DNA from: Lepidurus packardi
Taxonomy: Eukaryota; Arthropoda; Branchiopoda; Notostraca; Triopsidae
Length of the DNA stretch: 64,000 nt
Direction of reading: 5' to 3'
Assembly: GCA_023053545.1 (NCBI GenBank)
Contig: JAKZAN010000007.1
Coordinates: 6,882,001-6,946,000, forward strand
Positions 59,046-62,998 of this stretch are shown piece after piece (the stretch's first letter is position 1; each line of letters starts with the position of its first letter). The position numbers and the translations under genes are program-made. The notes under the pieces were generated by a model, which was given only the letters and a program-made list of their open reading frames with translations, had not been told where the DNA came from and made no database searches.

Positions 59046-59837
59046 ATGACTAGTATAATTGAAAGCCCCTTTCCAGATATGTGCGTTGACGTTTTTATTC
59101 GCCTTCGAATAGTATTTACTTTAAAATATCCGCTTAATAATGTTGTTTGTCCATTTTACACTACAGGCTGATGAAAGGAATCCCTGTTTTAAACACCCTA
59201 TCGAATGAACTGATGAGGGAACTAATAGAACGAATAGCGAAATCTTACGGAACAAATTGTTTGAACACAACTGAGGAAGTCACATGGCTTCAGCAGAAAT
59301 GTGAGAAAGTAGACGAAGACGGTCTTCAATCAGCGGTTTTGGCTATTGCATACATCATTCAGAAAGTCTTGTTTTAACGATGTATTAATTTATTTGTAAA
59401 GCAAAATATTTTTTATAGGCAGCACATAAATTAGCCAAACCTGCTGTACTTGAAAGTAGTCTTCAGCAGTTACATTTAGATCCTGGTCATACAGAAATTT
59501 TCAGCGAGAGTTGGACCGCGCTCGCGAAGGATTTAGTCGAGTCACTTAGAAAACGGACCTTCGTTCCATTAAAGGTTTACCTTTTGCTTATGCATGGGAT
59601 CGGTGTTAATAAGTTTCTTCCAAGGTGGACTATGTCAATGCATCCGTACACGTCGAGGTTGCTAACCAGTACTTCTACCCTGGCAAAGCTCCGCTAGCAC
59701 AAATTGCTTGGGGCTTGAGCAATCGTGATGATGAAAAGGCCACGACACTGGTGACTGAATACAATTACGGTGAACTGTTAAAGCTCTATGAGACTTTGGA
59801 GGAAATTCAAGAGAGTCTGGACGCTATGTCTAGTTAA
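59046..59837 (+). CDS. COMMD10: COMM domain-containing protein 10
   Basis: Subunit of the Commander complex, which works in endosomal recycling and NF-kB control. Exons 59046-59080, 59167-59365, 59419-59574, 59625-59837 give 200 aa, matching the usual 202. The start is in a short first exon (MTSIIESPFPDM) joined in phase 2 to LMKGIPVLNTLS. The helical N-domain is followed by the COMM domain from about residue 130, with the W-aliphatic and FxxxLE-type core (LKVDYVNASVHVEVANQ; LKLYETLEEIQESLD). The second intron has a weak donor (AAA/gtcttg), but the family text continues exactly across it. Confidence 0.92.
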
Positions 59838-59893
59838 ATGCTGATTTCTAAATTGATATATTCGCTTTCTGTACACCTGAAATGTAAAGACCA

Positions 59894-59899: not shown

Positions 59900-60082
59900 A
59901 CTTTATATCAAAGAATCAACAATAATCTGGCATAACAATTGTCGAACTAAATTATGGGACGTATTATCCGATTTCAATATCCGAAACCAATTACGGATAT
60001 GCATAAATTTAATGAGGTCTCACGTCGTCCACGGCAATTAGTCTAAACCCGGAAAACAATCTCAGCCTGCTATTCTCTGTGT

Positions 60083-60242
60083 TTAAAGTTCGGAAGCATC
60101 GTCAGGTAAGCTGTTAAAAGTTCTTTCCCAAGAATATATGGGAGGTCCAGGCGTGAAGCAGTACTTTTTATCCATAACATCTGCTTCTCGCGAGGCCCAA
60201 TACATCATATAAAAATTGCACATCTCGTCGCCGTTCGTTAGT
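60083..60242 (-). CDS. Phm: Alternative terminal exon B of PHM
   Basis: Open from acceptor tcaaatag to TAA, 160 nt, entered in phase 2 after exon 60976-60784. It reads [16 protein letters not shown] and ends LPDDASEL. Exon A (60664-60505), also 160 nt and phase 2, reads [16 protein letters not shown] and ends IPNDASAL. Both keep the copper-binding Met, the Cys pair and the GPP-x-W core, but the segment between them differs. Exon B lies 262 bp beyond the end of exon A, so the pair arose by tandem exon duplication. Confidence 0.85.
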
Positions 60243-62998
60243 CTATTTGAAACGAGAAGTAAACACTGTATTGTTGCACTATAATGGAGTAATAAAAACC
60301 AAAGACGTGTTCAACGGAACGCGAAGCAACTTGATCGAAAATCGTGTAAGACATCTAAGTAGTTCAGGTTCAAAGATCCGTGCTCCGTGCGTGTCAATCG
60401 AATAAATAAACGTGCAACAGTGCTGAACAAATAAGTAGCAACCAAATACAGAAGGAACATAATAACGCGGTGTCGTTCGCTGAAGTATGACCAGCGTAAA
60501 ACAACTACAGTGCGGAAGCGTCATTGGGAATGTTCCTTAGTCGGAAGCGGGACCAAGTGAACAAAGGTGGTCCCCAACTGTAGCAAGTCTTTTGTTTAAG
60601 CGAATCCGCTCCATCAATCCAGTACATCAAATAATAATTGCACATTTCATCGTCCACCGTCAAGCTGAGGAACAACAAAAAGGCAAAGCGCAACACGTTG
60701 GGGAAAAACAAAAACAAAAGGACACAAAAATGAAACAAACAAAAACAAAATATTCCCGAAACAGAATAATAAAAGCTAATTACCCGATCTTAGTCGTCCA
60801 AGTTCGATCACTAACCATTGTGCACCGGGCTGCAACAACGTCTCCCTTTGTAAGAGTCATCTCGTTGGTTACAGAATAGAACATCTGTGGAAGTTGTGGG
60901 TCTTTCTTGCCAATCAAGGTCCATTGGTCTTTTCCTTTCCTGTCCTTGACTACTTTATAACCCGAAACAACTCGTCCTGTAATTAATAGTAATTAATATT
61001 CTGGCCCGTATGAAACGGAATGCAAAGTACCCAAAGCGTGCGTATGAGTACGGAAAGCGAAGGGATGAATAATCTTATTTTCTTCAATCTTGCAAGCCGT
61101 TTCCATGTACTCTACACTGTTGGCCGGAATACGACCACCTGTTCCCAGCAATAATACACCGGCTGCTTTGGGTTGTCTGCAAATGATACAAATTACAACA
61201 ACGCTTCCTAAAAACATTTTTAATACGTACGGTTCTTCTGTATAGTGTAAAAACACACCAGAATCGTCGGTCGATCCATCTTTATAAAATACACATATTA
61301 ATTTTTCGTTACAATTCTTCTGCTGTATGTAGAAACTTGCCTTGAAAACGGTCTACCGATGCATAGTGGACTTGAAGGACAATATACTGAATTGGAGATT
61401 TCCCTCCAACTCGAAATCCTACTCCTTCAGGTAACTCCAAAGCAGGAGCGTCATGCGCCCATGCATAAACAACCTAACCATGAACATCAGTAATCTCAAT
61501 TAACATCAGGGACAAAGTGAGTACTTGAGATCCTTTTCCGCACGGGGAAGCGGTCTTTAACCCGGGCTGTCTAACGGCCATTTCCCCACAGTTCCAGACT
61601 TCCTCGCTGCTACCGGGTTCTTGACAGCCAAACAACAACATGTGATGAGCTGTCTTCATGGTAGCATTTGGCGTGAAACCGACTAGAAATTAGAATGAGA
61701 AGATTATACTTTAATAAAGGCGTTAAGATGTTCTGCACTATACCAAAAGAGTTGCTTACCAACGAAATAGTCTTGATTGGATTCGATCCGGATCGGCGTG
61801 CAGAGATACGTCTCGGGCTGGAAAAAAATATAACACAATATTGAAGGGTCATGCTTTTAACGAAATATTCATTCGTGAATGACAGCCACGTCGTAGTATT
61901 AACACATTGAAGACTTATCATCGAGTACCCTTTATTAAAAGCAGCGAGGCGAAAAGGTCGAAGACCATACGAGATCGACCCAGATAGTTACGTAACCATG
62001 GAGATAGGTAATTGACGTCAACGACTGCATACGTGGGCGTCAAAAAGAAACCTCTTCGCTTTTGTGTCAAAAAAACCGGATTCTCGGTTCAACTAAGCTT
62101 GCAAACCCCCATTTTTATATTACTGTTTGCGCACCAACTTAACGGATACATAAAAGGACTAAAGCCATTGTTGTTTTTGTAAACATGTAACGTCTTTCCT
62201 TCCTTTTTATCTCCTTTGCATTGTCGACGTGTTCGCGCTCTTATTATCTCAGCTTTCGTCTTCGAGATGTCCTCATTATTATTATTTCTACGAAAAGACA
62301 TGGAAGCACAAGCAGGAAAACAATAGCAATAGCCCTTACAGGGTGAAAGCCCCCGGAACAAATTCCGAGCTTGTACTACGTGCAAAACCGCAGCTTTAGA
62401 GTACCGTTAGTTTTAGAGACCAACCCACGGGCGAAATTAGCTATATGTCATACTTTAAGTTCAATGGCTGACGCGATTTCTTGGGCTTTCAGTATATAGC
62501 TGTCACGAACCGATGGTTCCGATTCTTTGACCGTGACCGTCTTCCTCAACTGATGTAGCTTTCATATAGTCAATTTCCAACCTTCAACTGGAGCAGGGAC
62601 ATTTACCAAAACACTGACCCAGTACTGGTGACCGCTTAACCTTGGTACCGTTATTCGGAAGCCTTTGTTAGACTTATTCTAACGGATTGATGCGATGGCC
62701 AAAATGACGACGTGTTATTTATCAGAAAGCACAACTTTTTCACTATGCGGCTTAAATAAGAAAATCACTAAGTGACTCGCTCGGGAATTAAAACATAACT
62801 CCAAATGCCTCGGGATTATAACGAGACGAAAATGAGCAGCAAAAAAAAAAAATAAGTAAAATTAGTTCTTACCTTTTCAGGTCTAACATTCGGCATCAAC
62901 AATGGGAAGGTATCTGTGGGTAATGATCGTGCAGGATATATTTCCACCACCATGCAGGCGAGGAGCAACAAGTACTGAACACGCCGTCTGAACTCCAT
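60083..62998 (-). CDS. Phm: Peptidylglycine alpha-hydroxylating monooxygenase
   Basis: Copper- and ascorbate-dependent enzyme that hydroxylates the terminal glycine of peptides in the first step of neuropeptide amidation, in the secretory pathway. Exons (minus): 62998-62873, 61817-61760, 61682-61525, 61473-61341, 61279-61231, 61176-61031, 60976-60784, then either 60664-60505 or 60242-60083; 340 aa with either end. The signal segment is at the N-terminus ([10 protein letters not shown]). Copper ligands are all present: HHMLLFGC (two His), QVHY (His), HTHALG (two His), and Met in DEMCN, which lies in the alternative last exon. Disulfide cysteines and VGFRVGG are kept. There is no lyase (PAL) domain, as in insects. 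Intron 1 is 1.06 kb without a gene. Intron 4 has a GC donor (CAAG/gcaagt). Confidence 0.96.

Follow-up and report, generated by a model that had tools for sequence, protein, structure and literature searches.

Many neuropeptides are active only when their C terminus is amidated, and the first step of this modification is carried out by peptidylglycine alpha-hydroxylating monooxygenase (PHM), a copper type II, ascorbate-dependent monooxygenase. The PHM gene of Lepidurus packardi ends in two homologous terminal exons, designated 8A and 8B, which raises the question whether a single gene could supply two amidating enzymes that differ in the segment carrying a copper-binding methionine. This question was addressed in the 64-kb window (the whole stretch of DNA that was analyzed, 64,000 nucleotides, to which all positions refer unless indicated otherwise), supplemented with searches of the genome.

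Anatomy of the PHM gene and identity of its products

The PHM gene is complete on the minus strand of the window and consists of seven shared exons followed by 8A and 8B. Exon 1 (62873..62998) is open from its ATG, encodes an N terminus that by eye resembles a signal peptide, and ends at a GTAAGA donor; exon 2 (61760..61817) could be aligned to rat PHM; exon 3 (61525..61682) encodes the residues equivalent to the CuH ligands H107 and H108 of rat PHM, and exon 4 (61341..61473), with donor GCAAGT, the residue equivalent to the CuH ligand H172. Exon 5 (61231..61279) was placed by the gene model, exon 6 (61031..61176) encodes the residues equivalent to the CuM ligands H242 and H244, and exon 7 (60784..60976) is the last shared exon, ending in phase 2 at a GTAATT donor. 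Exons 1 to 7 (62998 to 60784) form a single joined reading frame. The introns are of the GT-AG type except the one after exon 4, which is GC-AG and starts with GCAAGT (window 61335-61340, minus strand).

Further along the minus strand, exon 7 is followed by an intron of 119 nt (60665..60783), terminal exon 8A (60505..60664; preceded by ...CTCAG and closed by TAG), an interval of 262 nt (60243..60504), and terminal exon 8B (60083..60242; preceded by ...AATAG and closed by TAA). The original prediction had placed both exons here, each 160 nt long, entered in phase 2 and ending in a stop, and this was borne out to the base. Both can be joined to exon 7 in phase 2, completing the same Gly codon, both have an AG acceptor at the homologous place, and in each of them the frame in continuity with exon 7 is the sole open one, the other two being interrupted by stops. 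The resulting forms, PHM-A and PHM-B, are open and 340 amino acids long, and their differences are confined to the last 52 residues. A third copy of the terminal exon was not found in the window.

The likeness of 8A and 8B is not due to chance, since their protein alignment score is 143, as compared to a maximum of 19 for 2000 shuffles of B, and each exon by itself passes the cut-off of the Pfam family Cu2_monoox_C (35.1 bits for 8A and 36.4 bits for 8B; cut-off 23). The prediction that a single PHM gene carries alternative terminal exons is well supported at the sequence level, by frame, phase, length, acceptors, and the constraint described below. PF01082 and PF03712, the N- and C-terminal Cu2 monooxygenase domains, score above their cut-offs in both forms, and the Pfam score of the whole forms is 145.6 for A and 147.1 for B, the form with 8B again scoring slightly better than the one with 8A. 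In a search of solved structures, rat PHM ranked first for both forms (E 5.1e-72 for A and 1.4e-70 for B), with dopamine beta-hydroxylase far behind (E 5.1e-16 and 1.7e-15, respectively), and 127 of the 276 aligned residues of PHM-A are identical to rat PHM. The alignment with rat PHM ends at query residue 305 for B and at 323 for A, which indicates that the far end of B is less rat-like.

The copper ligands of rat PHM, as identified in the part of PMC6123673 drawn upon here, all have their equivalents in the predicted protein (H107, H108, H172, H242, H244, and M314; 6/6), the five histidines in shared exons and the methionine in the swapped exon. Eight of the nine rat PHM cysteines that were looked at are conserved. 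At PHM-A residues 164 and 186 (exons 5-6), Asp and Gly take the places of rat C186 and M208, and one disulfide of rat PHM appears to be absent here. The gene product is a monofunctional PHM that is probably secreted.

Searching the genome with the whole PHM protein yielded 12 places at E up to 1, eight of which are at the PHM locus, where they comprise the shared exons, each found once, and both terminal exons. The other four are in a PAM-like gene (L003; G000:C6:1395249-1398599), in which PHM exons are followed on the same strand by PAL-like exons that match NHL. A separate PAL-like locus is present on the same contig as the PAM-like gene (G000:C6:858135-858546; L020 and L021), and its exons are 53-56% identical to the PAL part of that gene over two stretches. 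This set of PHM, PAM-like, and separate PAL-like genes matches the dual amidation system that was reported for scorpions and is stated to occur in crustaceans as well, in the part of PMC6669573 consulted; the arthropod monofunctional PHM described there is likewise a PHM of approximately 340 amino acids without PAL, accompanied by a bifunctional PAM and by PAL as a gene of its own. As judged by eye, the intron that precedes the MCN-motif exon of the PAM-like gene has nearly the same place as its counterpart in the PHM gene, but is in phase 1 and one base off. Two more PF03712 loci were encountered (G000:C2:10315519-10316125 and G000:C4:2020644-2021703), which may represent the dopamine/tyramine beta-hydroxylase or MOXD branch.

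Splice sites and predicted 3' ends of the two forms

Both terminal exons correspond in sequence to C-terminal tandem duplicated exons, as they are adjacent and homologous, share the same phase, and each have their own AG, pyrimidine tract, and stop. The acceptors contain 13/16 (8A) and 12/16 (8B) pyrimidines, compared to 9-13 in seven others (six from the PHM gene, the seventh from the PAM-like gene). These counts were preferred over a matrix built from the same seven acceptors, which are too few for its scores to be trusted, although the matrix is not supportive of 8A: it assigns -4.59 to 8A, a score equaled or exceeded by 40% of the 3682 minus-strand AGs, and 2.67 to 8B (5.8% equal or better), which places 8B within and 8A below the leave-one-out range of the seven acceptors (1.1 to 9.7). 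It also gives a higher rank than 8B to two further AGs that lie between 8A and 8B (exon start at 60422 and 60278).

The intron before 8A is 57% T. One 60-nt stretch in it, with 41 T, is richer in T than any other on the two strands of the window, and the intron also contains four of the ten TTTTGTTT words of the minus strand; the plus strand has 21 of these words. The T-rich tract of this intron could plausibly be bound by a factor with a preference for U-rich RNA and is put forward here as a candidate regulatory element, while it may also be simply a long polypyrimidine tract.

Neither AATAAA nor ATTAAA occurs between 60504 and 60243, where a single variant AATACA is present at 60272. The likely shared poly(A) signal is an ATTAAA on the minus strand (60008..60013), 70 nt past the stop of 8B. 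Other hexamers are a GATAAA within 8B (60172), a TATAAA at 59907 that is a second poly(A) candidate, and an AATATA at 59862; because every poly(A) hexamer at this locus is non-canonical or a variant, the shared poly(A) step is uncertain. A convergent neighboring gene on the plus strand (window 59141-59837) has its stop approximately 245 bases from that of PHM-B. One piece of it just passes the COMM_HN cut-off (23.6 bits versus 23), and its last piece matched nothing. With this gene ending at 59837, a PHM 3' end that extends much further is less likely, and the proximity of the two stops implies that the 3' UTRs may overlap.

The best explanation, to which we assign a probability of about 0.8, is that 8A and 8B would serve as alternative terminal exons by competition between their acceptors, giving PHM-A and PHM-B, and that the two would probably have a single poly(A) site in common, located after 8B. 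The absence of AATAAA and ATTAAA between the exons together with the neighbor at 59837 point to such acceptor choice with both mRNAs ending after 8B, and the original picture of alternative last exons may need to be recast in these terms. Anatomy, open frames, homology, and constraint on the pair are the firm parts of this explanation, on which the use of both exons, the shared poly(A) site, a regulator, and a functional difference are proposed. Joining of exon 7 to the near acceptor would remove the 119-nt intron and give PHM-A, while joining to the far acceptor would remove an intron of 541 nt (60783-60243) and give PHM-B. Since both exons carry their own stop, a protein made by joining exon 7 to either of them lacks the other, and the choice would be exclusive at the protein level without extra machinery. 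The 8A mRNA would probably read on through 8B to the same poly(A) site, such that the switch is between acceptors, and the interval between the exons would act as 3' UTR of form A or, in form B, as the distal portion of the intron. A trans-acting factor that binds the U/GU-rich tract could mask the near acceptor and thereby free 8B; ELAV-, CELF-, or TIA-like proteins are candidates for this role.

The same mutually exclusive choice of terminal regions is known for the terminal exon clusters of Drosophila pip and the 3' variable regions of PGRP-LC, according to the portion of PMC9013439 considered here. For PGRP-LC competing RNA structures are described in that source, whereas no inverted repeat of at least 14 nt is present within 60083-60783 and the folding of the PHM pair region is average (z 0.24; 63 of 100 shuffles were equally or more stable). 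Competing structures are therefore not supported, although a single species makes this a weak test and the detection of shorter sites needs several.

Age and constraint of the duplication

The proteins encoded by 8A and 8B are identical at 25/51 residues, with identities of 32, 34, and 23 out of 51 at the three codon positions. The diverged segments that were set side by side in the original prediction do not align without gaps; the best alignment has one single-codon gap per exon. From the 51 codon pairs, a pN of 0.331 and a pS of 0.775 were obtained (pN/pS 0.43; bootstrap 0.28-0.65), and synonymous sites look saturated. Similarity between the flanks of the two exons was limited to short words, the best of which, between the upstream flanks, is 11 nt (E 0.98). 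Residue identity, pN/pS, saturated synonymous sites, and unlike flanks all argue that the tandem duplication of the last coding exon is old and that both copies have been constrained. This constraint is read from the A-B pair and the family profile in one species, and is compatible with recent loss of one copy.

Moreover, certain features common to A and B are missing from the PAM exon (a W at the position of rat Y322, GPP, and the DAS-L end), which suggests that the duplication probably postdates the separation from PAM, yet is old. A weak direct repeat (60287-60302 / 60764-60779; 81% over 16 nt), short and T-rich on the minus strand, might be a mark of the duplicated unit. The exon pair itself was detected as direct repeat D1, and further short direct repeats (D2 and D3) exist. 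Relatives elsewhere were not found: a single protein scan of viral contigs gave no pattern match, and a single scan of prokaryotic contigs gave three pattern matches, among which tblastn recognized no relative.

These data bear on the possibility that 8B is an unused relic, with only 8A being spliced and 8B lying within its 3' UTR. That 8A lies nearer to exon 7 and has a good pyrimidine tract agrees with this, as does the consideration that 8B, with AATAAA and ATTAAA missing between the exons, would be transcribed as UTR. However, the frame, length, stop, and acceptor of 8B are all intact, the family-profile score of this exon is slightly above that of 8A, and free drift does not preserve it: when B was derived from A by unconstrained simulation at 0.6, 0.8, or 1.0 substitutions per site, the open frame and the observed identity were kept in 0/2000 runs for every one of these rates. 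At 0.4 per site, 81/2000 runs retained the frame and 25 identities, and third positions were then 69% alike as compared to the 45% observed. We therefore regard a relic as unlikely.

Slightly less probable still is that one of the ends yields nearly all of the protein, the other being functionally negligible. Relative use is not readable from sequence and the profile scores are near equal, which leaves room for this reading, but retention of the copper Met, the cysteines, and the neighboring residues in both exons speaks against it. Finally, an assembly artifact, or the remnant of a second, partly lost tandem PHM gene, is highly improbable: haplotype errors and partial gene duplications can in general duplicate gene ends, but identity at 25/51 residues with a pS of 0.78 excludes haplotypes, the flanks are dissimilar, exons 1-7 occur as one set at the locus, and the genome search with 8B gave two places, 8B itself and 8A.

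Possible consequences of the proposed exon swap and relation to known systems

The original prediction that the copper-methionine segment is swapped is literally true, as Met295 (rat Met314) lies inside the swapped exon and both exons encode DEMCN-[Y/F]-Y as anticipated. The proposal that the two enzymes have different active-site surroundings is supported weakly and only in part. The equivalents of rat 314, 315, 316, 318, 320, 321, and 322 are identical in A and B, and the differences within this stretch are Y or F at 317 and L or M at 319. Of these residues, N316, Y318, and M320 lie near the substrate in rat PHM. Through rat 322 the exons agree at 12/16 positions (the shared Gly counted), after which 14/36 are identical and the net charge is +2 in A versus -3 in B; most of the divergence lies 9-45 residues past the Met. 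A cysteine is present at the position of rat C334 in both forms.

Since the copper ligands are kept and the residues around the Met are largely the same, both forms should be working enzymes, and any difference between them likely concerns stability, partners, or peptide approach and not chemistry. In terms of the acceptor-competition model, both would retain the two copper sites and are predicted to hydroxylate peptidyl-glycine, and the differences between PHM-A and PHM-B would fall in the last part of the second domain (past rat 322), with possible effects on stability, partner, or substrate approach.

Swapping of C-terminal tandem exons is already known. In the portion of PMC9741552 used here, 77 of 236 human tandem exon substitution events exchange the C-terminal region, C-terminal substitutions of this type are apparently independent in three tropomyosin genes, and, as in the PHM gene, homologous neighboring 3' coding exons give homologous C-termini. 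The swapped tails described in that source are rich in membrane, coiled-coil, and disordered residues and are almost never ligand-binding, whereas the PHM exons carry a catalytic metal ligand. The PHM pair is real and probably functional, and its place is unusual.

Several PHM forms are also known from other systems, as far as these are covered in the consulted part of PMC6669573. In rat PAM, the splice forms differ by the presence or absence of a linker region that contains a cleavage site, and in Lymnaea whole domains are repeated in a precursor with four PHM domains; neither is said there to swap the end of the catalytic core. The scorpion monofunctional enzymes are encoded by independent genes, with alternative splicing ruled out as their source, and that account mentions no duplicated terminal exon. 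The original statement that such exons are not described for PHM is consistent with the titles and abstract openings of the papers that PHM-directed searches of an open-access library returned, none of which reports a swapped terminal exon in PHM; this scope cannot prove absence. Public Daphnia annotation might already hold both ends as isoforms.

In its broadest form, the proposal is that one gene gives two amidating enzymes by switching the last portion of the catalytic core, with its CuM Met, according to cell type or stage, the altered stretches having opposite net charge, such that splicing sets which peptide hormones are amidated. We consider this rather doubtful. If true, a catalytic metal ligand would be placed in an alternatively chosen exon, and an entire class of hormones would come under the control of one splicing decision within the catalytic core.
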